Below are positions 43,230 through 61,949 of a stretch of DNA of 64,000 nucleotides, piece by piece (the stretch's first letter is position 1; every line of letters starts with the position of its first letter). Below the pieces are notes generated by a model. That model saw only the letters and a program-made list of their open reading frames with translations, was not told the DNA's origin and made no database searches. The position numbers and the translations under genes are program-made. Source of the DNA: an uncultured Allomuricauda sp. (GTDB lineage Bacteria; Bacteroidota; Bacteroidia; Flavobacteriales; Flavobacteriaceae); NCBI RefSeq assembly GCF_947499585.1, contig NZ_CANMOO010000002.1, forward strand, positions 62,001 through 126,000, written 5' to 3'.

Positions 43230-45986
43230 ATGTTCAATTCTTCTAGAATAGTTATCCTTTTATCCCTAATTCCAATGCTAACCATTGGACAAAATTTGCT
43301 CCCTCCCATTTACAATTATAAGCCACTCGAGTATAAAGGAGCAAGCAAAAACTGGGGATTGGCTGTAAACGAAAAAGGTGAGCTTTTTGTGGCCAATAAC
43401 AAAGGACTCCTTTATTTTAATGGCGAAAAATGGAGCCTTAATAAGTTGCCAAATAATACCATAATACGTTCAGCTGTATCAGTGGGAGACCTCATTTACA
43501 CAGGATCCTATGAAGAGTTTGGGTGTTGGAAAAAAAATGAAGTCGGAGTTTTAGAATACACTTCATTAACTCACCTAATCAAAAATCATCTCTTCACCAG
43601 TGAAGAGTTTTGGGAAATTTTTCATGTTAACGATAAAATCTTATTTAGGTCTTTTTCGGCAATCTATATTTATGAAAATGATAAAATTACGGTAATAGAC
43701 CCAACAGAAATTATTTCTGATATCGTTGTTTATGAGAACAAAATCATTGTGGCCGCCGGAACCGAAGGTCTCTTTGAATTAAAAGGCGAAACGATAGTTC
43801 CTTTAATAAATCAGGAATTGCTATTTGGTAAAACAATTACGGATATGGTCGTAATTGAAGATGGCCTATTGATAGGAACTAAATTGAATGGGTGCTATTT
43901 ATTGAATGGCGCAAAGCTAGAACCATGGAAAGCTATGGTAAATGAAGAATTAAAAATGCACCAATTAAACAAAGTGCTTAATCTCTCCACAAAAAAGATA
44001 GCTTTCGGAACAATTAAAAACGGGGTATATCTTTTTGACCCAGATACACAAACTTCACAAATACTTAATAAGGAATCTGGGTTACAAAACAACACAGTAC
44101 TTTCAATGCTCCAGTTTAACAATCAGTTATGGTTAGGGCTCGATAATGGTATTGCCAGAGTAAGACTCAACAACCCCATTACATATTATACGGATTACTA
44201 TGGAACCTTGGGAATGGTATATGATATGGCTTTTCATAACAATAGGCTCTATGTAGGCAGCAATACGGGAGTGTTCTATTTTGAAAACAATGAACTACAA
44301 TTTGTTGATGGCTCCCAGGGTCATGTTTGGGACTTAGAGGTTGTTGCTGACGATTTATTCTGCGGACATAACACTGGCACCTATAAGCTAAACAATACAA
44401 ATCTTGAGAAAATTTCAGACTTTTCAGGAGGATATGAAATTAAGAAAGTACCAGGGCAAAATTCTTCCTATATGCAAGGGACATATAATGGACTTGTTAA
44501 ATATAAAAAGAGAGAAAATGGTTCTTGGGAAGTTACAAAGGTTGAGGGAGACATCAACTTTCCCATAAAGCAATTATGTTTTGAAACTCCAAATATTCTA
44601 TGGGCGGCACACCCCTACAAAGGATTTTATAGAATCCACATTAACGATGATTTTAATGAAGTAGTTAGCATAAACCAATATATAGGTGAAAATGCACCTA
44701 GTGAGTTTAATATTAAAATTTACAACATTAAAAACCAGATTGTTTTCTTCAATGATAGTACATGGTACAAATATGACCCCATTCTTGATCGTATCATCCT
44801 TTTTGAAGAATTTCAAAAATTTAATAACAAAGAGCTTTTATTTTTTGATGACAGCTACTTCTGGTTTGTAGACAATGAAGAAGAGAAGGAAATTATCCAT
44901 ACAAATCTTAGAACGGATAGTTTATTAATCACAGACCTTCAGTTACGCGAAAGATTGGTGTCTGATTCTCAAAACATGATAAAATTAAGTGATAGTCTGA
45001 CATTCATCACATTAAGTGATGGCTTTGCAAAAATCAATCGTTCAAAATTTCAAAAACAGTTGGACAGTTTCGCTTTACCAACCCCCATATTGAATTTTGT
45101 TAAAGATGAAAAGGATACCCATACCGTAAATAAGAACTTTTTGAAAATCCCTTTTAAATATTCACACAATATAACTATTGAGGTAGCTTCTCCAGAATTG
45201 ATACAACCTCGCTACTATTATAAATTACAAGGTCCTAAAAGCTATGAGGCGTATGCAAGCAATGGTTTCATCAACTTTCAAAACCTTCCTTATGGAGACT
45301 ATTTCTTTAGCGTTTCAACAGTAGGCATTGATAATGAAACCTCCTCCCCAAGGACGGTAGAATTTGAAATAGCTCCCCCTTGGTACCTTTCTAAGATCAG
45401 CATCGCTCTTTATATCCTAATAGCAATAGCAAGTGTCTTTATTATTAGATGGTACAATGCGAGGAAATTGGAACGAAAGCGAGAGGAGCTTGAGTTGCAA
45501 ATGAAAAAAGAGCAAAAAGAAAAATTGGCCACACTTGAAAAAGAAAAATTGGCAAAGGAAATCAAGCTTAAGCAAAACGAATTGGCCAGTACAACTCTGA
45601 ATATTGCAAAAAAGAATGAGATGATTTTAGAATTAAAGAACATGCTCGTACTCCACAAGGATAAATTCTCCAATTCTCAACGATACAGGTCATTTATCAA
45701 AAAATTGAACAATTCAGTAAAAGATACAGAAGATTGGAAAAGATTTGAAGTAAATTTTAAAGAGTTACATGAAGATTTTTTCGAACGTCTTTTAAAAGAA
45801 TATCCAACTTTAACTCCAAAAGACCTAAAACTATGTGCATATCTAAAGATGAACCTCTCCACCAAAGAAATTGCGCCATTAATGGCTATTACAATTAGGG
45901 GTGTGGAAATACATCGGTATAGATTAAGAAAAAAACTACAGATTGACAACTCAAAAAACCTATCTAACTTTTTAATAACCTTCTAA
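43230..45986 (+). CDS. Membrane-spanning propeller/Y_Y_Y sensor with LuxR-type HTH
   Basis: One-component sensor-regulator of 918 residues that probably controls the polysaccharide locus downstream. Signal peptide to about 20; a beta-propeller with repeats such as GLLYFNGEKW, GVYLFDPDTQ and GLDNGIARVRLN up to about 600; a Y_Y_Y-type beta-sandwich before the membrane (RYYYKLQGPKSYEAY, about 665-720); one membrane helix at about 722-742; a long coiled coil (KREELELQMKKEQKEK); and a C-terminal LuxR-like helix-turn-helix (LTPKDLKLCAYLKMNLSTKEIA, about 860-882). It lacks kinase and receiver domains, unlike hybrid two-component regulators of many such loci. Confidence 0.92.
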   Translation: MFNSSRIVILLSLIPMLTIGQNLLPPIYNYKPLEYKGASKNWGLAVNEKGELFVANNKGLLYFNGEKWSLNKLPNNTIIRSAVSVGDLIYTGSYEEFGCWKKNEVGVLEYTSLTHLIKNHLFTSEEFWEIFHVNDKILFRSFSAIYIYENDKITVIDPTEIISDIVVYENKIIVAAGTEGLFELKGETIVPLINQELLFGKTITDMVVIEDGLLIGTKLNGCYLLNGAKLEPWKAMVNEELKMHQLNKVLNLSTKKIAFGTIKNGVYLFDPDTQTSQILNKESGLQNNTVLSMLQFNNQLWLGLDNGIARVRLNNPITYYTDYYGTLGMVYDMAFHNNRLYVGSNTGVFYFENNELQFVDGSQGHVWDLEVVADDLFCGHNTGTYKLNNTNLEKISDFSGGYEIKKVPGQNSSYMQGTYNGLVKYKKRENGSWEVTKVEGDINFPIKQLCFETPNILWAAHPYKGFYRIHINDDFNEVVSINQYIGENAPSEFNIKIYNIKNQIVFFNDSTWYKYDPILDRIILFEEFQKFNNKELLFFDDSYFWFVDNEEEKEIIHTNLRTDSLLITDLQLRERLVSDSQNMIKLSDSLTFITLSDGFAKINRSKFQKQLDSFALPTPILNFVKDEKDTHTVNKNFLKIPFKYSHNITIEVASPELIQPRYYYKLQGPKSYEAYASNGFINFQNLPYGDYFFSVSTVGIDNETSSPRTVEFEIAPPWYLSKISIALYILIAIASVFIIRWYNARKLERKREELELQMKKEQKEKLATLEKEKLAKEIKLKQNELASTTLNIAKKNEMILELKNMLVLHKDKFSNSQRYRSFIKKLNNSVKDTEDWKRFEVNFKELHEDFFERLLKEYPTLTPKDLKLCAYLKMNLSTKEIAPLMAITIRGVEIHRYRLRKKLQIDNSKNLSNFLITF

Positions 45987-46053
45987 AGCTGCATAGGTTA
46001 TAAATTTATTGTCAAAAGAGGCCATTTTTCCACTACGTCATTACCACATCACA

Positions 46054-46221: not shown

Positions 46222-49200
46222 ATGAAAATTAGAAGCGTCTTATTATTAATCTCGTTTATGTTGTTTCAAGTTGCTCTTTTCTCACAAAACAACATTACGG
46301 TAGCTGGAACTGTTTCTGATAGTGAAGGGCAGCCTTTGCCTGGGGCAAATGTTATTTTAAAAGGTACTACAACAGGCGTACAAACCGATTTTGATGGAAA
46401 TTACATTTTGACCAATGTGTCTGATAACGGTATACTGATATTTAGTTATATCGGCTTTAGCCCAAAGGAAATTGATATCAATGGCCAAACTACTATCAAT
46501 CTTACACTTCAGGAGGACACAAATGTTTTAGATGAAGTAGTGGTAGTTGGGTATGGAGAATTAAAAGTAAAAGACCTTACCTCTTCCATAGTAACCGTAG
46601 ACTCGGAAGTATTAGATCTGGCTCCTGTAGGGCAAGCTATGCAAGCTATTCAGGGCCGAGTAGCGGGGGTCCAAATAGTAAACAACGGCGGACCCGGACA
46701 ATCCCCAACAGTTAGAGTGCGTGGAATTGGTTCTTATAGTGCAGGTGCTTCAGGCCCCCTATTTGTGGTTGATGGTGCATTTTTTGACGACATAGATTTT
46801 TTAAATCCTTCAGATATAGAATCTATATCAATTTTAAAAGATGCCTCTGCTTCTGCTATTTACGGTGTCCGTGCTGCAAACGGGGTGGTTCTAATAGAAA
46901 CAAAGTCAGGCTCCCATAATCAGAAACCGCAAATCACTTATGATGGCTATACAGGCTATCAAGTACCCCAAAATGTACTTGCCATGGCCAATGCGGAGCA
47001 GTTTACCACTTTGGCTTTGGAATCTGGATCGGATCCAGATGCACAATTTATCCTAAATGCTATGCAACGCTACGGGAGAAGCAGGGTAAATCCGAATATT
47101 CCTGATGTAAATACGGATTGGTACGATGAGGTAATGCGAGTTGCTTTAATACAAAACCATAGCATGGGTATCACAGGAGGTAGTGAAGATGCCACCTACG
47201 CCATAGGCGTAAACTATTTTGAACAAGGAGGCCTTCTAAAAATGAAAAATGAATATGAACGTTTCAACTTACGAAGTAAAATAGATTTTAAAGTAAATGA
47301 TTGGTTAAAGGTTGGTGGCAATGTTGTGTTGAGCAATGCTACTCGCTATGACGCTGAAAATTCAGCTTGGCGATTAGCATACTTTGCCGTACCAATATTA
47401 CCTGTTTTTGACCCCCAACTTGCTGACAATCCTGATGTTTTCCCTACAAACTATGCGAATGCGCAAGATTTGGGATATCGGGGAGGTCAAAACCCTTTTC
47501 CCACCATGGACTTTAGCGAGAACCGAGAGGAAATCAGAAATGTATTGGCAAACTTTTATGCCGAAGTTGATCTGATTCCTGAAAAACTAAAGTTTAAAAC
47601 AGCATACAATCACAATTTTGAAAGTGTAAATCGCCGTGAAGTTAGATTACCATATTTCATAGGCGACAATTTTCAACGTGTAGATGCAAATCTTTTAAAA
47701 CGAAATATCACTATATCCAATCAAATTTGGGACAATACATTGACCTATACTGAGTCTTTTGATAAACATAATTTAACAGCATTAGCGGGCACTTCCTTTA
47801 GAGATGAAGCTTTCGACTTATTACAAGCCAGGGGGCTAAACTTTCCGTTGACTGGAGAAGAATCATACTTTATCAATCTTGCCCAAACCATTGTTCAGGA
47901 AGATACTTTTGATGGAGGGGCCAGAGAATTCGGTTTCTCTTATTTTGGAAGGCTTAACTATAACTATGACAACCGCTACTTGCTATATGGAACTTTCAGA
48001 GCGGATGGCACAAATAAATACCAAGAAAAATGGGGTTACTTCCCTACGATTGGCGTAGGTTGGGTACTAACAGGCGAATCTTTTATGGAAAACAATGGCA
48101 TCTTCGATTTTTTAAAGTTACGAGGTAGCTGGGGAGAATTAGGAAACGATAGAGTTCCTTCTAGTGAAGGCTCTATTACTTCCGAAGTGGTCACTACTGC
48201 CTTGGGTGACATCTTCTTTAGCGGATTAAATACCAGCAGCGATTTTACTGCACTGAAATGGGAGGTAACTGAAGAAATTAATGCAGGGCTTACAGCACGT
48301 TTACTCAATAATAATCTATCCATAGAAGCAGACTATTATGTTAGGGATACCAAGGACGCGGTAATACCCGTATTAAGGCCACTCATTCCGGGTGCAACAA
48401 GACAAAATGTGGGTGAAATAAGAAATACAGGTTTAGAAATAGCCATTAATTGGGATAAGCGGGTATCCGAAGATTTCAGCTATAGTGTTGGAGGTAATTT
48501 TACAACGTTGGACAACGAAGTATTAGGTCTAGGTGGTGCTGAATTTCTGGACGCGGGTAGCGCTGAATTCCGTCAACGGTCTATAGTAGGAGAATCCATT
48601 TTTGCCTTTTTCGGTAGAGAGGTCATTGGAGTATATCAAAATGATGCTCAAATTCAAGCAGATCCCGTTGCTGTTGCCAATGACTTAGCGCCAGGTGATT
48701 TTATCTATAGAGATATCAATGGAGATGGAGATATTACAGATGATGATAGAACCGTTTTGGGTTCATTCCTGCCGTCTTATTCCTTCGGAATCAATATAGG
48801 GTTTAACTATAAAAATTGGGATTTCTCTGCAAGCGGCACAGGGCAAGGTGGAAACTCTATCTTAAACCGTAAACGAGGAGAGGTGATTTTTACCAATGAC
48901 ACCAATTGGGATCGAGATTTTGCCATAAATCGTTGGCATGGAGAAGGAACAACCAATAGTTATCCGTCATCAGCTGGAATTAGAAAAGGTTGGAACCAAC
49001 GTTTAAACAATTTCTTTGTGGAAGATGGAGATTTCTTTAGAATTCAAAATATAACACTTGGGTACACCATCAATAAAGATGGACAACTTAAAGGAATACC
49101 TCAAGTACGAATATATGCCACCGCTGAAAAACCTTTGACACTCTTTAACTACAATGGGTTTAACCCAGAGGTAGCGGATGGTATAGACAACCAAACTTAC

Positions 49201-49245
49201 CCAATACCTGCCGTGTACACCATAGGTGTAAATGTCAAAATCTAA
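46222..49245 (+). CDS. SusC/RagA-type TonB-dependent transporter of the glucan locus
   Basis: Outer-membrane importer of oligosaccharides, 1007 residues. Signal peptide to about 21; regulatory domain at about 25-95 (VAGTVSDSEGQPLPGANVIL); DEVVVVGYGELKVKDLTSSI as the conserved TonB-box region at about 106-125; plug domain with GRVAGVQIVNNGG, VRGIGSY, FVVDGAFFDD and ASAIYGVRAANGVVLI; beta-barrel to an aromatic-containing end (YTIGVNVKI). Compared with the first SusC it belongs to the subgroup that commonly accompanies glycan loci. The SusD partner starts 12 bases after its stop. Confidence 0.96.
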   Translation: MKIRSVLLLISFMLFQVALFSQNNITVAGTVSDSEGQPLPGANVILKGTTTGVQTDFDGNYILTNVSDNGILIFSYIGFSPKEIDINGQTTINLTLQEDTNVLDEVVVVGYGELKVKDLTSSIVTVDSEVLDLAPVGQAMQAIQGRVAGVQIVNNGGPGQSPTVRVRGIGSYSAGASGPLFVVDGAFFDDIDFLNPSDIESISILKDASASAIYGVRAANGVVLIETKSGSHNQKPQITYDGYTGYQVPQNVLAMANAEQFTTLALESGSDPDAQFILNAMQRYGRSRVNPNIPDVNTDWYDEVMRVALIQNHSMGITGGSEDATYAIGVNYFEQGGLLKMKNEYERFNLRSKIDFKVNDWLKVGGNVVLSNATRYDAENSAWRLAYFAVPILPVFDPQLADNPDVFPTNYANAQDLGYRGGQNPFPTMDFSENREEIRNVLANFYAEVDLIPEKLKFKTAYNHNFESVNRREVRLPYFIGDNFQRVDANLLKRNITISNQIWDNTLTYTESFDKHNLTALAGTSFRDEAFDLLQARGLNFPLTGEESYFINLAQTIVQEDTFDGGAREFGFSYFGRLNYNYDNRYLLYGTFRADGTNKYQEKWGYFPTIGVGWVLTGESFMENNGIFDFLKLRGSWGELGNDRVPSSEGSITSEVVTTALGDIFFSGLNTSSDFTALKWEVTEEINAGLTARLLNNNLSIEADYYVRDTKDAVIPVLRPLIPGATRQNVGEIRNTGLEIAINWDKRVSEDFSYSVGGNFTTLDNEVLGLGGAEFLDAGSAEFRQRSIVGESIFAFFGREVIGVYQNDAQIQADPVAVANDLAPGDFIYRDINGDGDITDDDRTVLGSFLPSYSFGINIGFNYKNWDFSASGTGQGGNSILNRKRGEVIFTNDTNWDRDFAINRWHGEGTTNSYPSSAGIRKGWNQRLNNFFVEDGDFFRIQNITLGYTINKDGQLKGIPQVRIYATAEKPLTLFNYNGFNPEVADGIDNQTYPIPAVYTIGVNVKI

Positions 49246-49257
49246 AAAAAAGTTACT

Positions 49258-50799
49258 ATGAAAAAACTATTTAAAAGAACAAAAGCAACAACCTTAATAG
49301 CCGGCCTTTTAATCGTTGGTATAGGATGCTCGGACAAACTGGAAGAACCTGAATTGAACAACAATTTTGCAGGGGGAACAGACTTCACAAAAACGGAAGA
49401 TATGGAACTCTCTATCATTGGAGTGTATGAGGCCTTTCAATCTCGTGGATGGGAACAACCACTTCTAATTTCAGTTCGTGGAGATGATGTAAATGCTGGT
49501 GGTTTGGGAGATCAGCAAGATTTTGCTGAGACTGACCTCTTCAATTACAACAAAGATTACTGGATGTACAATTCGCTTTGGGAAAATGTATATGTAGATG
49601 TAATTACCTCACATACTGCTATGGATCAAATAATGAGGTATCAAGAGTTGGCAGATGATGCAGGCAAGGCTCTAGGTGACCAATATATTGCTGAAGCCAA
49701 GGTACTTCGTGCCATTATGCTTTTCCACATTTCACAAGTTTGGGGTGAAGTATTCATTCCTACATCTTCAGACACGGCCGAACTTTTTGATGTAGAAACC
49801 GTTCCAACCCAAGAAGAGGTAATGCAGCATATCTCAAATCAAATGGACGAGGCCATACCCTTTTTGTTGGATACGCACCCAAATAAAAGAGAAGATCTTC
49901 CTGGTGGGGTAACACTGTATACCGCATTGGCCATAAAAGCTTTGGCTAATCAGGAGTTGGGCAATTACCAAGCCGTGGCAGATGCCGCGGGCCAAATCAT
50001 AAATTCCAATGAATTCAGCTTGTTTCCAGATTTTTATGAACTTTTCAAAATACCGGGAAAATTAAGTGATGAGAGCATTTTAGATATGCAATATTCTGAT
50101 TTTGGACAGGGAGAAGGCGATAGAGAAGCACATCTTTATGCCCCTTATGGCCCACAAGGTTGGACACCTGCTGTTGATGGAGCAGCAAGTGGATGGGGAT
50201 TCTATGAACCAAGTATGAAATTCATCAAATTCATGTTGGATCGTGGTGAAACCGTAAGATTGGAAACCAGCGTTCTGTTTACAGACAGAGGCATTGCCGA
50301 AATTCAGACTGATCCAAATTACGCAACCTTACCAGCTTTTGTTTCAAACACAACCAGAGATGGTGATATTATTAACGACTATGCAAGAGCACTCTTTGCC
50401 AGTGGCAAGCACTATTTACCTTCAAATCAATTAATCTCTGGAAGAACATCGTATGGCAGTAATAAAAACTACAATATAATCCGATATGCTGAAATTCTAT
50501 TGGTTTATGCCGAAGCGTTGACTCAAGGAGCCTCTGCTTCTGGTATGACAGCTGATCAAGCTGTAAACCTGGTAAGACAAAGAGTTGGAATGTCAGCCTT
50601 ATCAGGAGTAACATTAGATCAGGTTATTGACGAGAAGTTTGCCGAGTTAGGTATGGAATGGGGCAAACGCTACTATGACATGATTAGGTTAGGAAGAGTG
50701 AACGAATTAAGTTATGATGGAAGAACATTTACAGAAGATAAGAGTTTCCTTCCCTACCCTCAGGCTCAAGTAGACCAATTTCCTATCCTAGATAAATAA
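49258..50799 (+). CDS. SusD/RagB-like glycan-binding lipoprotein
   Basis: Surface lid protein of the SusCD complex, 513 residues, lipobox IVGIGC (cysteine 24). SusD features include the helical TPR-like region (EAKVLRAIMLFHISQVWGEV at about 150-169, the typical RALAYF-like stretch), YTALAIKALANQELGNY, and the C-terminal RYAEILLVYAEAL and LGMEWGKRYYDMIRLG. It is cotranscribed with SusC. Binding residues for the sugar cannot be singled out without a structure. Confidence 0.95.
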   Translation: MKKLFKRTKATTLIAGLLIVGIGCSDKLEEPELNNNFAGGTDFTKTEDMELSIIGVYEAFQSRGWEQPLLISVRGDDVNAGGLGDQQDFAETDLFNYNKDYWMYNSLWENVYVDVITSHTAMDQIMRYQELADDAGKALGDQYIAEAKVLRAIMLFHISQVWGEVFIPTSSDTAELFDVETVPTQEEVMQHISNQMDEAIPFLLDTHPNKREDLPGGVTLYTALAIKALANQELGNYQAVADAAGQIINSNEFSLFPDFYELFKIPGKLSDESILDMQYSDFGQGEGDREAHLYAPYGPQGWTPAVDGAASGWGFYEPSMKFIKFMLDRGETVRLETSVLFTDRGIAEIQTDPNYATLPAFVSNTTRDGDIINDYARALFASGKHYLPSNQLISGRTSYGSNKNYNIIRYAEILLVYAEALTQGASASGMTADQAVNLVRQRVGMSALSGVTLDQVIDEKFAELGMEWGKRYYDMIRLGRVNELSYDGRTFTEDKSFLPYPQAQVDQFPILDK

Positions 50800-50829: not shown

Positions 50830-52611
50830 ATGAAACATTTAAAACAACTAGGTTTTTATATAATAGCCATGTCATTTCTTTTGGGATGTGAACAAGGCAT
50901 AGATAGCATTACCGCAGTAGATTCCGGTGCGGATGCTTCAGCTCCGGCGGTTGTAATTAACTCCCCAACAGAAGGTAGCAAAATAAAAGTACTGGAGGTC
51001 GTGACTTCAATAACTGTAGATTTTGAAGTAACAGACGATATTGAGGTTGCTTCTATCGAAATATTATTGGATGGAACTAAAATTGGAGATTTCAATAGTT
51101 TCAAGGACTATCGTCGCGTCCTAATTGATGATTTCGTTTATGATCAATTAACAGACGGTACTCACGAGTTAACTATCAGGGCTACAGATTTAGACGGTAA
51201 AACCACTTCTTCCTCTGTTAATTTTGAAAAAGAACCAGCCTACACACCGCTATATGCAGGAGAAACGCTCTACATGCCTTTTGATGGAGACAACTTTGAT
51301 TTAGTAAACATTCGTCAAGCTGATAAAGTTGGAGATCCTGGATTCACTGGTGAAGGATTTGTTGGCAACAATGCATATGCAGGCGCGCCAGATTCCTATC
51401 TCACCTTGCCTACAGACGGCATGTTAACAAATGAATTTAGTGCTATTTTTTGGTACAAAGTAAACGCTGATCCAGATAGAGCAGGTATTTTGGTTATTGG
51501 TCCTCCAGATGAGGCCAATCCCGATGCTCAAAACAATCGTCAAAATGGATTTAGATTTTTCCGTGAAAACGCAGGAGGAAACCAACGATTTAAACTTAAT
51601 GTAGGTACTGGAGCAGGAGAATCTTGGTTTGATGGTGGTGCAGCTGCAGATGTTGCTCCAGGGACTGATTGGACCCATATGGCATTTACTATTTCACAAA
51701 ACCAAGCTACCGTTTACATAAATGGTCAGATTGTAAGCCAAGGTGATTTTGACGGCGTGGATTGGACCAATTGTGATTTGCTTTCCATTATGTCTGGAGA
51801 ACCTCGTTTTTCTGGATGGAACCATAAATATGATGGCAGTAATATGGACGAATTGCGAATGTTCAACAGAGTACTTCCACAGTCTGAAATCCAAAATATA
51901 ATGACCGCAGAAGCAGGTGGTTTTGTTGGTTCTTTTGATGCAGAAATGTTCTATATGCCTTTTGATGGAAATAATTCAGAAATGTTCACCAGCAGTGATG
52001 CTACTGTTGTTGGCACTCCTAGTTTTGCCGGAGAAAGTGCCTCAGGAAGTGATGCATATGCCGGAGCAACAGATGCATATCTAACATTTCCAACCAATGG
52101 ATTGACCACAGGTGAGTTTAGTGCAACTATGTGGTATAAAATAAACGCAGATCCCGATAGAGCTGGAATACTGGTTATGGGACCTCCAGATACAGAAGGA
52201 GCGGAATATCCAGATATTCAGAATTTAAGAACAAATGGTTTCCGCTTCTTTAGGGAAGCAGGCGGGGATGGACAGATTTTCAAACTAAATGTGGGCAACG
52301 GAACAGCAGATAGCTGGTATGATGGCGGAGTAACAGCTTCCATACCATCAGACACCGCAGACTGGGTTCATTTGGCCTTCACCATTTCCAATACAGAATG
52401 TGTGGTCTATATAGACGGAGAAGTAGTAGCACAAGGAGATTTTACGGGAGTAGATTGGACTGGTTGCGACATACTGTCCATTGGCTCAGGTGCACCAAGG
52501 TTTAATCAATGGAATCACTTATCCGATTTAAGTTACATAGATGAATTACGATTGTTTGACAAAGCATTATCTCAAGGAGAAGTGCAAAGTGTCAGAAATT
52601 CAGATTTGTAA
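50830..52611 (+). CDS. Surface lipoprotein with tandem LamG-like domains
   Basis: Likely surface glycan-binding protein of the locus, 593 residues. Lipobox LLGC (cysteine 20), then an Ig-like domain at about 38-135 (PTEGSKIKVLEVVTSITVDF), then two concanavalin/LamG-like modules at about 145-357 and 370-588. The two modules are clear duplicates: each carries YMPFDG, a FSA-x-x-WYK strand, NADPDRAGIL, NGFRFFRE, FKLNVG and DELR-(M/L)-F near its end. No catalytic motif is visible. Position directly after SusD matches that of SGBP genes. Its duplicated modules may give bivalent binding. Confidence 0.88.
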   Translation: MKHLKQLGFYIIAMSFLLGCEQGIDSITAVDSGADASAPAVVINSPTEGSKIKVLEVVTSITVDFEVTDDIEVASIEILLDGTKIGDFNSFKDYRRVLIDDFVYDQLTDGTHELTIRATDLDGKTTSSSVNFEKEPAYTPLYAGETLYMPFDGDNFDLVNIRQADKVGDPGFTGEGFVGNNAYAGAPDSYLTLPTDGMLTNEFSAIFWYKVNADPDRAGILVIGPPDEANPDAQNNRQNGFRFFRENAGGNQRFKLNVGTGAGESWFDGGAAADVAPGTDWTHMAFTISQNQATVYINGQIVSQGDFDGVDWTNCDLLSIMSGEPRFSGWNHKYDGSNMDELRMFNRVLPQSEIQNIMTAEAGGFVGSFDAEMFYMPFDGNNSEMFTSSDATVVGTPSFAGESASGSDAYAGATDAYLTFPTNGLTTGEFSATMWYKINADPDRAGILVMGPPDTEGAEYPDIQNLRTNGFRFFREAGGDGQIFKLNVGNGTADSWYDGGVTASIPSDTADWVHLAFTISNTECVVYIDGEVVAQGDFTGVDWTGCDILSIGSGAPRFNQWNHLSDLSYIDELRLFDKALSQGEVQSVRNSDL

Positions 52612-54045: not shown

Positions 54046-55414
54046 AATTTTACTTTTTGTTGTAGTCACTTTTTTACTTTTTTCATGTGGCAAAGATGAT
54101 TACACCTACACTCCTCCTGAATTCCCAGATGATGATGCCGGGGAAGTACCTGATGAAGTACCTCAGATCTCAGATGAAGAATTATTGACACTAACCCAAA
54201 AAGAAACCTTCAAATATTTCTGGGATTTTGCAGAAAGTAATTCAGGAGGGGCTAAAGAAAGGTATCACCCAAATGACCCAACTAGAGACGCCCAAGTAGT
54301 TACCTCAGGAGGTACAGGATTTGGACTTATGGCAATTGTAGTGGGTATTGAAAGAGGTTTTATTACAAGAAGTGAAGGTATTGAACGATTAACCACTCTT
54401 CTAGATTTTCTAGAAACCGCGGATAGGTTTCATGGAGCTTGGTCACATTGGATAAATGGCACCAATGGCTCTGTAATCCCTTTCAGTCCTAATGATAACG
54501 GGGGAGATCTTGTTGAGACCGCATTTTTGACCCAAGGCTTAATCTGTATCAAGGAATATTTAAAAAACGGAACGGATGAAGAAAAAGTTTTAGCACAAAA
54601 GGCAGATGACCTTTGGAAAGGAGTTGAATGGAATTGGTATACTCAAAACAACGATGCCCTGTATTGGCACTGGAGCCCAAATCTAGGGTTTGCCATAAAC
54701 CTAGAACTTAAAGGATACAACGAAGTTCTAATTGCTTACGTTCTTGCGGCAGCTTCACCAGATTATAGTATTGCAAAAGAAGTTTATACAAATGGATGGG
54801 CTTCCAATGGAAGTATCGCTTACCCTAATAACAAATATGGATTCCCCCTGCTGGTAAGACATGCCGGTTCAAATGAGTTTGGCGGTCCATTATTTTGGGC
54901 CCACTATTCATATCTAGGTTTAAATCCGAAAAACCTCACAGACGATTATGTAAGCTATTGGGATGTCAATGTAAATCATTCTAAAATTAATTACAGCTAC
55001 TGTGTTGAAAATCCAAAAAACTTCAAAGGTTATGGTGAGGATTGTTGGGGGCTTACCGCAAGTTATACACGAAACACTGATGGCGGTTTGGGTTATAATG
55101 CTCATCACCCTGCAAATGACACTGGTATAATCTCACCAACAGCAGCTATAAGCTCCATACCCTATACCCCAACAGAATCCTTAAAGGCACTACATCACTT
55201 TTATAGCAAAAAAGAAAAGCTTTTAGGGCCAGCCGGATTTTATGATGCATTTAGCCCAGAATATAATGATTGGGTAGCTGAGGCATACTTAGCCATTGAC
55301 CAAGGCCCAGAGATTATTATGATTGAAAATCATAGAACTGGGCTATTGTGGAGTTTGTTCATGCAGAACGAAGATGTACAAGCCGGTCTTGATAAATTAG
55401 GTTTCAACTATTGA
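54038..55414 (+). CDS. GH144-type glucanase, copy 2
   Basis: Paralogue of the preceding gene, also 458 residues, with its own lipobox (LLFSC, cysteine 17) and an acidic, proline-rich linker (DDDAGEVPDEVP). The same landmarks are present: KETFKYFWDFAES, GGTGFGLMAIVVGIERGFI, DRFHGAWSHWI, GGDLVETAFLTQGLI, YWHWSPNLGF, HRTGLLWSLF. It has local insertions (GTNGSVIPF; TRNTDGGLGY) relative to copy 1, near the expected substrate cleft, so the two may divide the work between endo- and exo-cleavage. The 8-base overlap indicates coupled translation. Confidence 0.88.
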   Translation: MNKILLFVVVTFLLFSCGKDDYTYTPPEFPDDDAGEVPDEVPQISDEELLTLTQKETFKYFWDFAESNSGGAKERYHPNDPTRDAQVVTSGGTGFGLMAIVVGIERGFITRSEGIERLTTLLDFLETADRFHGAWSHWINGTNGSVIPFSPNDNGGDLVETAFLTQGLICIKEYLKNGTDEEKVLAQKADDLWKGVEWNWYTQNNDALYWHWSPNLGFAINLELKGYNEVLIAYVLAAASPDYSIAKEVYTNGWASNGSIAYPNNKYGFPLLVRHAGSNEFGGPLFWAHYSYLGLNPKNLTDDYVSYWDVNVNHSKINYSYCVENPKNFKGYGEDCWGLTASYTRNTDGGLGYNAHHPANDTGIISPTAAISSIPYTPTESLKALHHFYSKKEKLLGPAGFYDAFSPEYNDWVAEAYLAIDQGPEIIMIENHRTGLLWSLFMQNEDVQAGLDKLGFNY

Positions 55415-55457
55415 AATAAGTTGATATGATTGTAAAATCCCAGTTTAAGATTTGACC

Positions 55458-57182
55458 ATGAAGAACATTTGCAATACATATTGTTTTCTTTTCCTATGCT
55501 TGTCATCCGTACTTATCGCTCAAAATAGGCAACAAACCTATTGCAACCCAATTAACTTAGATTATACCTACATGATCTATAATGCCCATAAAAATCTATC
55601 ATATCGCTCAGGCGCGGATCCCGCAGTAGTCAAATTTCAAGATGAGTACTACATGTTTGTAACTCGCTCTATGGGTTATTGGCATTCTTCTGACTTGACC
55701 AATTGGAAATTCATTACTCCTAAACAGTGGTATTTTCAAGGATCAAATGCCCCAGCGACATTCGGCTATAAAGATTCTGTGTTGTATGTAGCAGGTAATC
55801 CGTCAGGTTCAATGAGCGTGTTGTATTCCAATAATCCAAAAAAAGGTGAATGGAAAGCCACCCCCTCAATTTTGAGCGACTTACAAGACCCTGCACTTTT
55901 CATTGATGATGATGGTGAGAGCTATATGTATTGGGGCTCCTCCAATAAGTTTCCAATACGTGCTAAAAAATTGGATCGATTAAACCGTTTTAAACCTTCA
56001 GAAAAAATACATGAACTTTTTAACCTTCAGCCAGAAAAACACGGTTGGGAACGTTTTGGAGAAAATCATTCTGACACTATTTTAGGCGGATATATTGAAG
56101 GGCCGTGGATGAACAAATACAAAAACAAATACTATTTACAATATGCTGCACCGGGTACGGAGTTCAACGTATATGGTGATGGTGTTTATATAGGCGATTC
56201 ACCTTTGGGGCCATTTACCTATGCGCCCAACAATCCCTTTTCTTACAAACCTGGGGGTTTTATCAATGGAGCTGGACATGGTAGTACGGTGTTGGGGCCA
56301 GAAAATGTGTATTGGCATTTTTCCTCAATGGCAGTAAATGTAAATATTGGGTGGGAACGTCGTATTGGTGCATTTTCAACATTTTTTGATGATGATGGAC
56401 TCATGTACAGTGACACCTATTTTGGGGATTATCCACATTATGCGCCATCCGCAACTGACAAGGAAGGATGTTTTAGAGGGTGGATGTTACTTTCTTATAA
56501 AAAACCTGTAAAAGTTTCTTCGGAAACCAGAGAATACAAAGGTGGAAATTTAGTGGATGAGAACATTAAAACCTTTTGGCTTGCACAAAAAAATGATGAC
56601 AAGCAATCAGTTGAAATAGATTTGCTCAAACCCTTACTGGTATATGCCATACAAGTAAACTACAATGATTATAAATCTGATATGTACGGAAAGATTCCCG
56701 GGTTGTATCATCAATATCTGGTGGAAGGTTCCCTTGATGGTAAAAAATGGACGTTGTTGATAGATCAAAGTACCAATATAAAAGATGTTCCTAATGATTA
56801 TTCTGAACTCCCTACCCCTGAGAAAGTTCGATTTATTCGATATAAAAATATACACGTTCCAACACCTTATTTATCCATTTCTGACATTCGGGTTTTTGGT
56901 AAGGGATACGGTAGAGCTCCAAAAGCGCCTAAAAACCTTTCTGCTACCAGAAAAAAAGACAAAAGAGAGGCGATAATTACTTGGGATTTGGTCAAAGGAA
57001 GTCAAGGTTATAATATACTATGGGGGATAACGCCTGATAAATTGTATAGTTCTTGGCTAGTATATGGTAAAAACAGTTTAGAGTTAAAGTTCTTAAATAC
57101 AGATCAGAACTATTATGTAACTATCGAAGCCTTCAATGAAGATGGTATCTCAGAAAGGGTGACGCCAATTATTATTGAATAA
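55458..57182 (+). CDS. GH43-like glycosidase with discoidin and fibronectin modules
   Basis: Secreted enzyme of 574 residues from the ATG at 55458 (a TTG two codons upstream is the alternative). Signal peptide to about 21. Counting from the TTG, the five-bladed propeller has all three acids expected of GH43-type enzymes: D56 (GADPAVV), D146 (LQDPALF) and E216 (YIEGPWM). After it come an F5/8-type C (discoidin) module at about 350-485 (GGNLVDENIKTFWLA, IQVNYNDY) and a fibronectin-like module to the end. GH43 enzymes usually remove arabinose, xylose or galactose, which is odd in a pure glucan locus. Subfamily not determined. Confidence 0.85.
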   Translation: MKNICNTYCFLFLCLSSVLIAQNRQQTYCNPINLDYTYMIYNAHKNLSYRSGADPAVVKFQDEYYMFVTRSMGYWHSSDLTNWKFITPKQWYFQGSNAPATFGYKDSVLYVAGNPSGSMSVLYSNNPKKGEWKATPSILSDLQDPALFIDDDGESYMYWGSSNKFPIRAKKLDRLNRFKPSEKIHELFNLQPEKHGWERFGENHSDTILGGYIEGPWMNKYKNKYYLQYAAPGTEFNVYGDGVYIGDSPLGPFTYAPNNPFSYKPGGFINGAGHGSTVLGPENVYWHFSSMAVNVNIGWERRIGAFSTFFDDDGLMYSDTYFGDYPHYAPSATDKEGCFRGWMLLSYKKPVKVSSETREYKGGNLVDENIKTFWLAQKNDDKQSVEIDLLKPLLVYAIQVNYNDYKSDMYGKIPGLYHQYLVEGSLDGKKWTLLIDQSTNIKDVPNDYSELPTPEKVRFIRYKNIHVPTPYLSISDIRVFGKGYGRAPKAPKNLSATRKKDKREAIITWDLVKGSQGYNILWGITPDKLYSSWLVYGKNSLELKFLNTDQNYYVTIEAFNEDGISERVTPIIIE

Positions 57183-57204: not shown

Positions 57205-59475
57205 ATGATAAAATATAGTGGAATGGGATTGGCGATCATCCTATCGTTATTGATGGTGCCTTTTGCAAACGGGCAAAATTCAATTCCAGAAGTAGAAGCC
57301 TTATTGGTAAAGATGACCTTAGAGGAAAAGATAGGCCAATTAAATTTACTTACGCCTGGTGGTGGGGTCGCAACCGGCGCTGTTGTAAGTAAAAATGTTG
57401 AGCAAAAAATAAAGGCTGGTCAAGTTGGAGGTTTGTTTGGAGCATCTGGTCCAGATAAGATACGTGTTGCCCAAGAGATGGCAGTAAACCATAGTCGTCT
57501 TAAGATTCCCTTGCTTATTGGTTCCGATGTAATTCATGGCTATAAAACCACCTTCCCAATACCCTTGGGGACCTCATGTAGCTGGGATATGGAACTAATC
57601 CAAAAAACAGCTCGTATTGCAGCTATTGAGGCTACGGCAGATGGCATCAATTGGAATTTTTCGCCAATGGTGGATATTGCCAGAGATCCTCGCTGGGGAC
57701 GTATTGCCGAAGGTGCTGGAGAGGATCCCTTCCTAGGTTCCGCTATAGCGAAAGCTATGGTAAAAGGATACCAAGGAGAAGATATCTCTGTTGCCAATAC
57801 TATGTTGGCCTGTGTAAAGCATTTTGCACTTTATGGTGCACCAGAGGCGGGACGGGACTACCATACGGTAGATATGGGTAGAATTAAAATGTTCAACCAA
57901 TACTTACCTCCTTACAAAGCAGCTGTTGAAGCAGGTGTTTTTAGCGTAATGACTTCCTTCAATGATATTGATGGGGTTCCTGCCACGGGAAACAAATGGC
58001 TGTTAAATGATGTATTGCGAGACCAATGGGGTTTTACTGGTTTTGTGGTATCTGACTATACTTCTGTTAATGAAATGATGGCTCATGGTCTTGGAGATTT
58101 ACAATCCGTATCTGCTTTAGCGCTAAAAGCTGGCTTGGATATGGATATGGTGGGGGAAGGTTTTCTTAGCACGCTAAAAAAATCCATTGCTGAGGGCAAA
58201 GTAACAGAAGTCGAAATAACAACTGCCTGTAGAAGAGTTTTGGAGGCTAAATACAAATTGGGGTTGTTTGATGATCCTTATCGATATTTGGATAGTAACC
58301 GCCCCAAAGAAAGTATTCTAACAAAAGAGCATCGCCAAACTGCAAGACAAATGGCTGCCAAGTCTTTTGTCTTGTTGAAAAACCATAATGACATTTTACC
58401 ACTCAAAAAAGATAGTAAAATAGCATTAGTTGGTCCTTTAGCGGATAGTAGAAAAAACATGTTGGGCACGTGGGCTCCTACAGGTGATTCCGATTTGGCG
58501 GTAACGATTGTAGAAGGATTTAAAAATGTAGCTCCAACAGCAGGTATCAGTATTGCAAAAGGGGCAAATATTTCTGACAATAATGAATTTGCAAAAAAGG
58601 TCAATGTATTTGGCCCAAGAATTGAAATTGACCGGAAATCTCCAGAAAAACTTCTTAAAGATGCATTGATTGCGGCTAACAAATCTGATGTGATAGTGGC
58701 TGTAATAGGTGAGGCAACAGAAATGAGTGGGGAAGCAGCCAGTAGAACAGATATTTCCATTCCAGAAAGTCAGAAAAAGCTAATCAGGGCATTGGTTGCC
58801 ACAGGTAAACCCGTTGCCTTGGTACTTATGAGTGGTCGTCCATTGACCATTCCTGAAGAATTTGACTTGCCCGTAGCTATTTTACAAGTTTGGCACCCTG
58901 GTGTGGAAGCGGGAAATGCAGTTGCTGATGTTGTCTTTGGCGATTATAATCCATCAGGTAAACTTACAGCAACTTGGCCCAGAAATGTTGGGCAAATACC
59001 GATTTACCATAGTGTGAAAAATACAGGAAGACCAGCATCCCCAAAATTTGAGAAATTCAAATCCAACTATTTAGATTCTCCGAACACACCTTTGCTTCCC
59101 TTTGGTTATGGTCTTAGTTATACCTCATTCGAATATTCAAACCTGACTTTGAACAAGACTAAAATCAACAAAGATGAAACGATAAATGCAAGTATCACGG
59201 TAGCAAATACTGGTAACTACGATGGAGAAGAAGTGGTACAGCTGTATTTGAGGGATATAGTCCGTAGCATTACCCCTCCTATGAGGCAATTAAAAGGTTT
59301 TAAAAAGGTTTTTCTGAAAAAAGGAGAACAGAAAACGGTCACCATCCAACTATTACCTGATGATTTAAAGTTTTACAATAGCTCGATGGAGTTTGTTTCG
59401 GAACCAGGAGAATTTGAAGTTTTTATGGGTACTAATTCCAATTGCAACTTAAAACAGTCATTCATCCTAAACTAA
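57205..59475 (+). CDS. GH3 beta-glucosidase (BglX-like)
   Basis: Periplasmic exo-beta-glucosidase, 756 residues, signal peptide to about 23 (FANGQ). GH3 landmarks: LLIGSDVIHGYKTTFPIPLG at about 104-123, DPRWGRIAEGAGEDPFLG at about 161-178, KHF at 205-207 and nucleophile D274 in GFVVSDYTSV. The C-terminal alpha/beta sandwich (VIAVIGEATEMSGEAASRTD, GRPLTIPE) and fibronectin-III-like tail (NASITVANTGNYDGEEVVQLY) are complete. It would release glucose from oligosaccharides such as sophorose made by the GH144 enzymes. It lies 22 bases after the GH43-like gene. Confidence 0.95.
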   Translation: MIKYSGMGLAIILSLLMVPFANGQNSIPEVEALLVKMTLEEKIGQLNLLTPGGGVATGAVVSKNVEQKIKAGQVGGLFGASGPDKIRVAQEMAVNHSRLKIPLLIGSDVIHGYKTTFPIPLGTSCSWDMELIQKTARIAAIEATADGINWNFSPMVDIARDPRWGRIAEGAGEDPFLGSAIAKAMVKGYQGEDISVANTMLACVKHFALYGAPEAGRDYHTVDMGRIKMFNQYLPPYKAAVEAGVFSVMTSFNDIDGVPATGNKWLLNDVLRDQWGFTGFVVSDYTSVNEMMAHGLGDLQSVSALALKAGLDMDMVGEGFLSTLKKSIAEGKVTEVEITTACRRVLEAKYKLGLFDDPYRYLDSNRPKESILTKEHRQTARQMAAKSFVLLKNHNDILPLKKDSKIALVGPLADSRKNMLGTWAPTGDSDLAVTIVEGFKNVAPTAGISIAKGANISDNNEFAKKVNVFGPRIEIDRKSPEKLLKDALIAANKSDVIVAVIGEATEMSGEAASRTDISIPESQKKLIRALVATGKPVALVLMSGRPLTIPEEFDLPVAILQVWHPGVEAGNAVADVVFGDYNPSGKLTATWPRNVGQIPIYHSVKNTGRPASPKFEKFKSNYLDSPNTPLLPFGYGLSYTSFEYSNLTLNKTKINKDETINASITVANTGNYDGEEVVQLYLRDIVRSITPPMRQLKGFKKVFLKKGEQKTVTIQLLPDDLKFYNSSMEFVSEPGEFEVFMGTNSNCNLKQSFILN

Positions 59476-59481
59476 ATAAAG

Positions 59482-61110
59482 ATGAATTGGAGGATAGGTG
59501 TTGCATGTTTATTCTATCTAATAATGTCGTGCAAGAAAAAAGAAAGCGACATCATTGAACAAATCAAGCCTCCAAATATTATTTTTATAATGTCCGATGA
59601 TCATGGAGCCCAAGCCATAAGTGCATACGGTCATGAATTAAGTCAACTTGCTCCAACACCCAATATTGACCGATTGGCACAAAATGGAGTTCTGTTTAAA
59701 AACGCCTTCTGTACGAATTCCATATGTGGCCCAAGCAGAGCTGTTATTCTCACTGGAAAACATAGCCACATCAACGGTTTCAGAATGAATGGGGATCGCT
59801 TTGATGGGAATCAGGCTACTTTGCCCAAATATTTACAAAAGCTAAGGTATAAAACCGCCATTGTTGGAAAATGGCATTTGCACGGAAAACCTCAAGGTTT
59901 TGATTATTGGGACATTCTTAATGATCAAGGAAATTACTATAATCCAGAGTTTATAAAAGGAGGCGACACCACTGTGGTAGAAGGTTATGCAACTGATATT
60001 ATCACTAAAAAGAGTCTGAACTGGTTAAAACAAAACCAAGATACTACCCAGCCCTTTTTTTTAATGGTACATCATAAAGCTCCGCACCGCAATTGGATGC
60101 CTGCTTTACGGCACACCAACCTCTATGATTCTATTCAATTTCCTCTTCCTGATACCTATTTTCAGTATTTTGAAAATCAACAAGCGGCCAAGGAGCAAAA
60201 GCAAACGATTTACGAAGACATGTATGAGGGACATGATCTAAAAATGAGTACCGCGTATGGTAGCACAGTATTGGCGCACAATCCATGGACAAAGGATTTT
60301 GATCGAATGAACACAGAACAGCGGAAAACATGGGACAATGCCTATTTGCAAAAAAACAATGCATTTCATAATGCTGACCTTCATGGTAAGGAGCTTGCCG
60401 CTTGGAAAGGTCAACGTTATTTACAAGACTATTTGGCAACTATAGCAGGGGTTGATGAAGGTGTGGGTAAAATTTTAGATTATTTAGAAAAAACTGGACT
60501 CGACCAAAACACTTTAGTGATTTATACTTCCGATCAAGGTTTTTATTTGGGTGAACGCGGTTGGTTTGATAAACGTTTCATGTACGAAGAATCCCTAAGA
60601 ATGCCCTTGTTAGCGCAACTACCAGGAAGAATAAAACGGGGAACAATAACAGATGCCATGGTTCAAAATTTGGATTTTGCTCCTACTCTGTTGGATCTAG
60701 CCGGAGGAATTCAGTACACCAAAAAGATGCAAGGCAAATCATTCAAAGCATTGTTGGATGGAACAGAGGTTGATTTTAAAGAAGCGATCTATTATCACTA
60801 TTATGATTATCCAGCTTTTCATATGGTAAAAAAACAATACGGAATACGCACCAAACGCTATAAATTAATCCATTTTTATGACGATATTGATGCTTGGGAA
60901 TTTTATGATTTGGAAAAAGACCCAAAAGAGCTGTACAATGCTATTGATAATGGAGGGTACAAAGACATAATCACCAAAATGCACCGGAAGTTGGACAGCT
61001 TACAAGAGCACTATTTAGTAACCGAAAAGGAATTTGAAACCACAACAAAAGCAGAAGTTGATGTTGCCAACAAAGCTTTTAAAAAATTAAGAGGTATCCC
61101 TATCAAATGA
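59482..61110 (+). CDS. S1-type sulfatase lipoprotein
   Basis: Sulfate ester hydrolase of the alkaline-phosphatase superfamily, 542 residues. Lipobox LIMSC (cysteine 17). Metal ligands D39-D40 (MSDDHG), formylglycine motif C82-x-P-S-R86 (CGPSRA) with TGK, then KWHLHG, HHKAPH and YTSDQGFYLGERGWFDKR. The active site is complete; the cysteine needs conversion by a maturase not in this window. The pattern resembles subfamilies that include glucosamine-6- and N-sulfatases, but the subfamily must be checked. It starts 6 bases after GH3 and overlaps the next gene by 4 bases. Confidence 0.93.
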   Translation: MNWRIGVACLFYLIMSCKKKESDIIEQIKPPNIIFIMSDDHGAQAISAYGHELSQLAPTPNIDRLAQNGVLFKNAFCTNSICGPSRAVILTGKHSHINGFRMNGDRFDGNQATLPKYLQKLRYKTAIVGKWHLHGKPQGFDYWDILNDQGNYYNPEFIKGGDTTVVEGYATDIITKKSLNWLKQNQDTTQPFFLMVHHKAPHRNWMPALRHTNLYDSIQFPLPDTYFQYFENQQAAKEQKQTIYEDMYEGHDLKMSTAYGSTVLAHNPWTKDFDRMNTEQRKTWDNAYLQKNNAFHNADLHGKELAAWKGQRYLQDYLATIAGVDEGVGKILDYLEKTGLDQNTLVIYTSDQGFYLGERGWFDKRFMYEESLRMPLLAQLPGRIKRGTITDAMVQNLDFAPTLLDLAGGIQYTKKMQGKSFKALLDGTEVDFKEAIYYHYYDYPAFHMVKKQYGIRTKRYKLIHFYDDIDAWEFYDLEKDPKELYNAIDNGGYKDIITKMHRKLDSLQEHYLVTEKEFETTTKAEVDVANKAFKKLRGIPIK

Positions 61111-61949
61111 AAAAAAATATTCTATTTGCTATTCTTACACTTGGCACTTCATTCATATACGCACAAACGTTGGATGTTATGTCCTATAATATAAGATATG
61201 ATAATCCCAAGGATAGTCTAAACAGTTGGGAACATCGAAAGGACTTTCTTATTTCGCAACTTAACTTTTATGCCCCGGGGATTTTTGGAACCCAGGAGGG
61301 GTTAATCCATCAATTAAAGCATATTGATGAAGGTTTAGCTGATTATTCATTTTTTGGAATTGGTAGGGACAATGGGGATGAAAAGGGTGAGTTTACAGCA
61401 ATTTTCTATAATAAAAAAATATACACTTTATTGGAGGAGAACACCTTTTGGTTATCCACAACTCCAGAAAAACCTTCAAAAGGATGGGATGCAGCATTGC
61501 CTAGAATATGCACCTACGGCTTGTTCAAAATAAATGGGAGCGAAAAGCAATTCTATGTTTTCAATACCCATTTTGACCATGTTGGAGAAGAAGCTCGCAA
61601 AAAAAGCGCACAACTTATTCTGAACAAAATTGAGCACTTAAATCCAAATGGGTTTCCCGTGGTTTTAATGGGAGATTTTAATCTAGAAAATAAGAGTGAT
61701 GGTGTCCAAATAATTGTCAAAAAACTGTCAGATACACATTTAAGTGCCGGCAAAAATGCCTTTGGCCCTGAAGGCACCTTTAATGGGTTTCATTTTACAC
61801 AACCAGTAACCCGAAGAATAGATTATGTCTTTGTTTCTGGGAATACGCTTAAGGTGCTTAAAAGTGGCATTTTAAGTGATTCTAAAAATTGCAGATACCC
61901 TTCTGACCACCTTCCCGTGCTTGCTAAACTTGTGTTTACTGATAAATAG
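61107..61949 (+). CDS. Secreted endonuclease/exonuclease/phosphatase-fold hydrolase
   Basis: Metal-dependent phosphoesterase-fold protein of 280 residues with a signal peptide (to about 19, FIYAQ). All EEP motifs are present: MSYNIRYDN, GTQEG, NTHFDHVG, MGDFNLE, RIDYVFVS and the closing SDHLPV. It is exported and co-translated with the sulfatase (ATGA overlap), which argues against a role in DNA repair and for a phosphodiesterase or phosphatase acting on a decorated glycan or on phosphate-containing breakdown products. The precise bond is inferred only from context. Last gene of the locus. Confidence 0.92.
   Translation: MKKNILFAILTLGTSFIYAQTLDVMSYNIRYDNPKDSLNSWEHRKDFLISQLNFYAPGIFGTQEGLIHQLKHIDEGLADYSFFGIGRDNGDEKGEFTAIFYNKKIYTLLEENTFWLSTTPEKPSKGWDAALPRICTYGLFKINGSEKQFYVFNTHFDHVGEEARKKSAQLILNKIEHLNPNGFPVVLMGDFNLENKSDGVQIIVKKLSDTHLSAGKNAFGPEGTFNGFHFTQPVTRRIDYVFVSGNTLKVLKSGILSDSKNCRYPSDHLPVLAKLVFTDK

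Follow-up and report, generated by a model that had tools for sequence, protein, structure and literature searches.

A marine flavobacterial locus predicted to harvest a sulfated, probably 6-O-sulfated, beta-1,2-glucan

What kind of polysaccharide is served by a ten-gene locus that combines two beta-1,2-glucanase homologues with a sulfatase and a phosphoesterase? The locus occupies positions 43230-61949 on the plus strand of a 64,000-nucleotide stretch of Allomuricauda DNA (here termed the window), and the original prediction had named a substituted beta-1,2-glucan, for example one carrying phosphoglycerol, or a sulfated marine glycan as its target. The open reading frames of the window confirm the predicted gene set: regulator, SusC, SusD, a LamG protein, two GH144 enzymes, GH43, GH3, sulfatase, and an EEP-family phosphoesterase are all co-directional. 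Regulator and SusC genes are separated by 235 bases, and from SusC onward no intergenic gap exceeds 57 bases (SusC-SusD, 12; SusD-LamG, 30; LamG-GH144a, 57; GH43-GH3, 22; GH3-sulfatase, 6). The two GH144 genes overlap by 8 bases and the sulfatase and EEP genes by 4 (ATGA); GH144b is followed by GH43 after 37 bases if translation begins at a TTG, or after 43 if it begins at the ATG at 55458. Profile matches and gene positions thus reveal a SusC/SusD pair together with carbohydrate enzymes in the same direction, the arrangement that defines a PUL, and the locus is such a PUL, carried by a marine flavobacterium from the Allomuricauda/Flagellimonas (Muricauda) group. Since the same gene arrangement was found again in numerous other Flavobacteriaceae, it reflects more than chance. 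A window scan with what we take to be the Bacteroidetes promoter pattern gave 6 sites against 5.7 expected, none of them inside the locus, and a promoter scan of 45900-62100 remained at chance level (49 sites, 47.0 expected). Terminator-like sites in the latter region numbered 20 against 12.4 expected; no weight is placed on them.

The first gene (43230..45986) encodes a regulator of 918 aa with a signal peptide and a membrane helix, both assigned by eye, a sensor region, a Y_Y_Y domain, and a LuxR-type helix-turn-helix. The propeller/LuxR sensor proposed earlier is only partly recovered: the LuxR element is seen weakly (GerE/LuxR, 22.5 bits, Pfam cut-off 23.5), whereas no propeller model was reported in the profile search. 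The Y_Y_Y match (22.3 bits, cut-off 26.6) also falls slightly short, and a weak BT3442_fam match is present. By its layout the protein may be called SusR-like, a resemblance we presume and a weaker call than those made for the other genes. It is followed by a SusC-type TonB-dependent outer-membrane importer (46222..49245, 1007 aa; TIGR04056, 804 bits, cut-off 368) and a SusD-type surface glycan-binding lipoprotein (49258..50799, 513 aa; PF07980 SusD_RagB, 72.8 bits). The LamG protein (50830..52611, 593 aa), a lipoprotein by eye, carries one bacterial Ig domain and two LamG domains (PF17957, 36 bits; PF13385 Laminin_G_3, 140 bits in two stretches) and is likely a surface glycan-binding protein.

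The backbone of the target is best judged from the GH144 pair and the GH3 enzyme. GH144a (52669..54045), a lipoprotein by eye, and GH144b (54038..55414), both of 458 aa, score 258 and 264 bits with PF10091 and align to the endo-beta-1,2-glucanase CpSGL (5gzh; E=2.5e-179 and 4.6e-155, respectively) over about 415 residues, that is, the whole catalytic domain. CpSGL residues D135, D139, E142, E211, F268, and Y330 correspond, as read by eye from the alignments, to D150, D154, E157, E227, F285, and Y347 in GH144a and to D153, D157, E160, E229, F286, and Y353 in GH144b. All catalytic and clan-defining residues are therefore kept in both enzymes, six out of six being identical. The residues following a lipobox cysteine are linked by rule to surface export, and the Cys-Gly-Lys-Asp-Asp found at this place in GH144b suggests that this enzyme is exported to the surface. 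The GH3 enzyme (57205..59475, 756 aa) is a beta-glucosidase of the BglX type (NF011678, 898 bits, cut-off 666; Pfam matches of 243 and 178 bits). Its best PDB matches include 3u48 (E=4e-298) and 5xxl (E=4e-280), the latter of which we take to be BT_3567, an enzyme acting on beta-1,2-glucooligosaccharides. In line with the original prediction, the intact GH144 residues and the BglX-type GH3 indicate that the backbone is very probably a beta-1,2-glucan.

The sulfatase (59482..61110, 542 aa; PF00884 Sulfatase, 189 bits; PF16347 SGSH_C, 211 bits) contains the formylglycine motif C-x-P-S-R as C82-G-P-S-R. Position 82 is cysteine in 43 of 44 aligned sulfatases, the remaining one (L192) having serine, and D363, R365, and H447, assigned as the Asp/Arg/His triad by motif alignment and in part by our own presumption, are invariant across all 44. 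An FGE-sulfatase domain, which is required for formylglycine in aerobes yet occurs in other proteins too, is present in the genome, and the anSME model TIGR03942 found no match there. Structural comparison by Foldseek placed 5g2v (BT4656) and 7p24 (BT3177_S1_11) at ranks 1 and 2, with a TM-score of 0.86 by query length, followed by an Akkermansia sulfatase without a subfamily in its title (ranks 3-4) and by porphyran 6-sulfatases, including two entries titled BuS1_11 (ranks 5-9). By sequence, the nearest sulfatase with a solved structure is 9s03, whose label reads just 'putative sulfatase'; no paper on it was found, and it is absent among the best 50 Foldseek matches. The enzyme is assigned to the S1_11 type from its Foldseek neighbours and its triad, independently of any SulfAtlas classification. 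In the S1_11 account consulted, the described members are 6-O-sulfatases in which the His of the triad contacts O3 and the Asp/Arg pair contacts O4 of 6S-GlcNAc; the same triad also serves L-galactose, notably in aquatic members (PMC10154612).

Close relatives of this sulfatase travel with GH144. Counting GH144 as present at 40% identity or more, 28 of 30 loci whose sulfatase is at least 60% identical to that of the window hold GH144, compared with 8 of 50 below 60%, in both cases among the matches listed. The two loci that depart from this pattern (L155 and L175) are ones whose available DNA starts within a GH43 gene beside GH3, the upstream region lying outside it; a further two, L188 and L190, scored as unlinked, carry more distant GH144-type matches (35% and 27%) below the 40% line. 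Among the matches listed for 71 congeneric genomes, with the best nine or fewer candidates scored per genome, GH144 occurs in 50, the sulfatase (at least 65% identity) in 45, and both in 44, the two genes lying within 15 kb in 41 and on different contigs in 3; six of the 50 GH144-bearing genomes are without a listed sulfatase. At the level of congeneric loci (about 20 kb each), the sulfatase is present in 25 of 27. C82, D363, R365, and H447 are conserved in 23/23 close sulfatases and equally in 15/15 sulfatases unlinked to GH144; the triad thus carries no glucan-specific signal. Linkage and triad together support the substituted target of the original prediction, and specifically its option of a sulfated marine glycan: the polymer is likely to be sulfated, and we lean towards O6 of a gluco-configured unit as the site. 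GH144 match, S1_11 triad, and sulfatase-GH144 linkage point to a sulfated, probably 6-O-sulfated, beta-1,2-glucan as the likeliest target, and on balance the locus would harvest such a polymer, probably with the sulfate on O6 of glucose.

The last gene, encoding a phosphoesterase exported by eye (61107..61949, 280 aa; PF03372 Exo_endo_phos, 66 bits), bears on an alternative in which the food consists of ordinary beta-1,2-glucans, cyclic or periplasmic and derived from other bacteria, with phosphoglycerol or phosphate on O6; the sulfatase-fold enzyme would attack the phosphodiester and the EEP enzyme take off the phosphate group. OPGs do bear phosphoglycerol, the nearest named solved relatives of the EEP enzyme (3mpr and 4c1r, E about 2e-54) are titled 'mannosyl-6-phosphatase', and its start overlaps the sulfatase stop. 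In 29 congeneric genomes no more than 15 kb separates the gene from GH144, and among the matches listed it is found in 12 of the 30 loci with a sulfatase of at least 60% identity. It also goes with GH144 at the genome level (44/50 genomes with GH144 versus 12/21 without detected GH144, among the matches listed), which is the counterpoint to the distribution, place, and tree from which EEP was rejected as evidence for a phosphoglycerol substrate. Among the 56 EEP-bearing congeneric genomes the gene is not restricted to GH144 loci: 12 lack detected GH144, or 11 when G037 is left out, a genome whose EEP adjoins the sulfatase on a short contig. In 15 of the 44 genomes with both genes, EEP is far from GH144 (4) or on another contig (11, among which G058 and G010 have it on the contig of the sulfatase). 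Of 20 EEP places inspected outside a GH144 locus, 13 are near an AlkB-like oxygenase and 13 near a molybdenum-cofactor dehydrogenase. Tree labels show that EEP has changed place several times, in and out of the locus; forks in the EEP and sulfatase trees are weak, and label changes alone were used. Profile searches recognised no phosphoglycerol-specific gene among the ten, and the S1_11 type of the sulfatase argues for 6-O-desulfation. Phosphoglycerol substitution, as first proposed, is therefore highly improbable, and the EEP enzyme is probably an accessory of the locus.

A different alternative keeps the beta-1,2-glucan backbone and places the sulfate on another, side-branch sugar removed by GH43, making the target a mixed, branched marine glycan. 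The GH43 gene (55452..57182; 574-576 aa depending on the TTG or ATG start) encodes F5/8C and fn3 domains beside the catalytic one (PF04616, 88.4 bits), and its triad is intact, D54, D144, and E214 (numbered from 55458, with presumed catalytic roles) being invariant in 18 aligned sequences. Neither sequence nor structure searches gave a neighbour usable for its function: PDB matches are weak (best profile E=7e-16), and the best Foldseek match, BT_3662, shows 18% identity and a TM-score of 0.45 (model mean pLDDT 76.6). The clade tracks GH144, PF10091 occurring in 76/79 genomes with it versus 68/313 without it among the matches listed, in a survey that scored the best three or fewer candidates per genome and may miss some GH43 genes. 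Of 81 GH43 places, 39 are within 15 kb of a GH144 place among the matches listed, 23 are not near one, and 19 have no listed GH144 place; the association is thus strong by genome and physical only in part. Four of the 23 distant places were examined: one adjoins GH30, another has an esterase plus an outer-membrane receptor in its vicinity, and the other two have no glycan enzyme among the neighbouring genes scanned. Three plasmid homologues (below 40%) have other surroundings; one of them adjoins BglX and mannan-type enzymes. L-galactose-6-sulfatases also belong to S1_11, which would suit a sulfated side branch. However, GH43 at 35% identity or more was not found in 12 of the 27 congeneric loci, as against the sulfatase in 25; the two genes are therefore not coupled. 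The Fisher value computed at the level of loci takes no account of relatedness. The clade also occurs without a matched sulfatase in the BDI_3064 locus of Parabacteroides distasonis, a gut organism, and a side-branch sulfate appears rather unlikely. A shift of the GH144-type enzymes to another backbone, leaving the locus inactive on beta-1,2-glucan, could be argued from a GH35 of one GH144 locus, a beta-1,2-galactosidase inactive on beta-1,2-glucooligosaccharides, in that GH144 loci may have other targets. The CpSGL residues kept in both enzymes and the BglX type of the GH3 nevertheless make this very improbable.

The sequence itself shows to which families the proteins belong, which catalytic residues they keep, and that sulfatase and GH144 are linked; for the favoured sulfated beta-1,2-glucan, we infer the substrate, the sulfate position, the cell location, and the order of steps. 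Fragments would be sensed by the regulator; SusD, the LamG protein, and the surface GH144 would bind and cut the polymer, and oligosaccharides would be imported through SusC. A periplasmic S1_11 sulfatase would then strip the 6-O-sulfate, probably at the non-reducing end, and the second GH144 and GH3 would take digestion on to its end products, sophorose and glucose. GH43 probably serves to remove or cleave some further part of the glucan, and the EEP enzyme would be an optional phosphoesterase. Literature searches found no report of a sulfated beta-1,2-glucan; if real, it would be a new marine polysaccharide, known solely via its digestion genes. Bolder, and held only tentatively, is the view that a widespread, as yet unseen marine 6-O-sulfated beta-1,2-glucan is matched by an S1_11 lineage specialised on 6-sulfoglucose and a GH43 clade of new specificity, for example in side-group removal from marine and non-marine glucans alike. 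The GH43 clade offers a second testable lead on natural beta-1,2-glucan structure.

The combination was originally thought to be undescribed, but loci with GH144 and sulfatase had already been reported. For GH144 loci of marine organisms in which a sulfatase is also present, a polymer of terrestrial sugar composition, but sulfated, was proposed; the passage concerned gives no sulfatase subfamily, sulfate position, GH43, or EEP, which are assigned or predicted for the window (Lapebie et al. 2019, PMC6499787). Maribacter dokdonensis 62-1 carries susCD, one GH3, two GH144, and sulfatase genes upstream of AlgPUL1; its GH144s share about 50% identity with the Chitinophaga enzyme, the authors suggest solely glucosidase or endoglucanase activity, and the cluster as described there includes no mention of GH43 or EEP, both present in the window (PMC8072126, 2021). 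New here are the 6-O prediction, the linkage counts, and the uncharacterised GH43 clade tracking GH144; through linkage and O6 prediction, the suggestion made in 2019 becomes testable by assaying a single enzyme. The BDI_3064 locus (NZ_OY725801.1) shares SusD, two GH144s, and BglX-type GH3 with the window and has two GH43s belonging to this clade (61% and 46%), but it has two BglX genes and no sulfatase or EEP matched within the stretch. On plasmid pPP7 of Persicobacter psychrovividus (NZ_AP025299.1), SusC, SusD, BglX, a GH144-type enzyme, sulfatase (50%), and GH43 (58%) are adjacent; in contrast to the window, the GH144-type enzyme is single (42%), and no LamG protein or EEP was matched. Finally, BT3177 and BT4656 share with the window sulfatase, at 46-47% identity by Foldseek, a common fold, the position of the formylglycine motif, and the Asp/Arg/His triad; whereas their substrates are 6S-GlcNAc or 6S-GlcNS from mucin or heparin, the window sulfatase adjoins glucanases.

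Ten genes, each with a family match in profile searches, occupy positions 43230-61949 of the forward strand in the order regulator, SusC, SusD, LamG protein, two GH144 enzymes (GH144a and GH144b), GH43 (55452-57182), GH3, sulfatase (59482-61110), and the phosphoesterase EEP (61107-61949). Since the intergenic gaps from SusC to EEP do not exceed 57 bases and two overlaps occur, this stretch is likely to form one transcript. The regulator, whose domain matches fall slightly below the Pfam cut-offs, lies 235 bases ahead of SusC. The genome containing the window comprises 3.77 Mb and, judged by the nearest named organism for its sulfatase among the matches listed (Flagellimonas hymeniacidonis, 86%), its host appears to belong to the Allomuricauda/Flagellimonas group. 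Just upstream of the locus, a [2Fe-2S] protein is paired with a molybdopterin-binding dehydrogenase subunit (39975-42655); a second SusC/SusD-type pair, with a SusD of the SusD-like_2 type, is found at 31641-37952, then a 448-aa protein without Pfam match. Facing the locus end on the reverse strand are a TauE/SafE-type exporter (61970-62803) and an MFS transporter (63009-63998). Putative sulfate or sulfite export would fit a sulfatase locus; a TauE relative was matched in only 2 of 120 loci (L124 and L133), many of the 120 ending before that point.

Both GH144 proteins match CpSGL, a characterised endo-β-1,2-glucanase (PDB 5gzh), along their full length, and every residue tied to catalysis or clan identity in the accessible part of PMC12102758 is present in both. 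The GH3 scores above the BglX equivalog cut-off in a profile search. Taken together, these protein features support, without proving, β-1,2-glucan as the backbone target, so that the original prediction is probably right on this point. Matches to GH144b in many congeneric genomes (e.g., in loci L013, L016, and L018) contain one in-frame stop within the matched range, perhaps reflecting an alignment that extends upstream of the start.

That the target is substituted, as also proposed, is probably correct, given the S1_11-type sulfatase and its linkage to GH144. The sulfatase motif C82-G-P-S-R is intact, and the AlphaFold model (mean pLDDT 90.2) is closest to the solved S1_11 sulfatases BT4656 (5g2v) and BT3177 (7p24). 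According to the available portion of PMC10154612, an S1_11 histidine contacts O3 and an Asp/Arg pair contacts O4 of 6-O-sulfated GlcNAc; the region recognizing the C2 group is missing in about half of S1_11, aquatic members especially, and members without it apply the same triad to L-galactose. By sequence comparison, the triad (D363, R365, and H447) is retained in the window sulfatase. Terminal 6-sulfoglucose would offer the same O3 and O4 as 6-O-sulfated GlcNAc, with O2 free, and we infer that this sulfatase may accept it.

Among the best 80 of 587 confirmed sulfatase stretches, with loci scored by tblastn, GH144 (at least 40% identity) accompanies 28 of 30 sulfatases of at least 60% identity and 8 of 50 below that value. 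In the two exceptions (L155 and L175), the available DNA starts within the GH43 adjoining GH3; they are also the only unlinked rows in the main clade (24 rows) of the sulfatase tree. On this tree the linkage label changes 7 times, compared with 13.8 in shuffles, which implies that outside the main clade linkage to GH144 was gained or lost several times. GH144 was detected in 50 and the sulfatase in 45 of 71 congeneric genomes; 44 have both, no more than 15 kb apart in 41. Hand-picking from GH144 matches gave 27 same-genus loci (about 20 kb each, some with cut ends), containing the sulfatase in 25, GH3 in all 27, GH43 in 15, and EEP in 18. In a phylum-wide set of 80 loci, GH144 of at least 40% identity is present in 60 and a sulfatase of at least 60% in 6. 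Locus genes are also carried by a Candidatus Margulisbacteria record (GH144, 51%; sulfatase, 55%; GH43, 67%) and the alphaproteobacterium Qipengyuania (a distant GH144-type gene, 27%, with GH3, sulfatase, and EEP), listed as L189/L190, which suggests that they may have moved between phyla.

The phosphoglycerol substituent offered as an option finds no support, as EEP (at least 50% identity; 56 of 71 congeneric genomes) shifts its place and occurs not only in 44 of 50 genomes with GH144 but also in 12 of the 21 in which none was detected (Fisher p 0.008, kinship ignored). In one of these 12 (G037), EEP and the sulfatase sit side by side on a short contig, and its GH144 may thus be absent from the assembly. 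Where EEP and GH144 coexist (44 genomes), they lie within 15 kb in 29, far apart on the same contig in 4, and on different contigs in 11, EEP sharing its contig with the sulfatase in two of the latter (G058 and G010). A tree of 47 EEP rows requires 5 switches of the in-locus label, 3 of which well-supported branches make unavoidable. The best interpretation is that EEP is a mobile accessory gene. Within the genus, many genomes carry it inside the GH144 locus and others elsewhere (L233-L252); outside the locus, an AlkB-like oxygenase adjoins it in 13 of 20 places sampled.

The locus is a real, widespread, and ordinary-looking polysaccharide utilization locus of a type previously noted in print. 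The combination had been thought undescribed, which is wrong: the accessible text of PMC6499787 describes marine GH144 loci with an extra sulfatase, proposing a ubiquitous sulfated polysaccharide, and that of PMC8072126 a Maribacter version. No named sulfated β-1,2-glucan was found in the literature searched, mostly open-access; the identity of the sulfate-bearing polymer is an interesting question accessible to single-enzyme tests.

The same literature yielded no function for the GH43 clade, for which sequence and structure comparison found no close solved relative; its catalytic triad is intact in the alignment. Among GH144 homologues, a sophorose-releasing exo enzyme is covered in the part of the review PMC11842490 available. 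In a draw of 392 Bacteroidota genomes, 79 contain the GH43 clade (E 1e-60 or better), and PF10091, the Pfam family matched by the GH144 enzymes, is present in 76 of these 79 versus 68 of the 313 without it, so that the clade co-occurs with GH144 across the phylum; of 81 GH43-clade places, 39 have a listed GH144 no more than 15 kb away. The clade is present in a locus on the Persicobacter psychrovividus plasmid pPP7 (L258) as well. As in the window, it also occurs in the Parabacteroides distasonis locus (L257) of BDI_3064 (5z06), which we take to be the sophorose-releasing enzyme.
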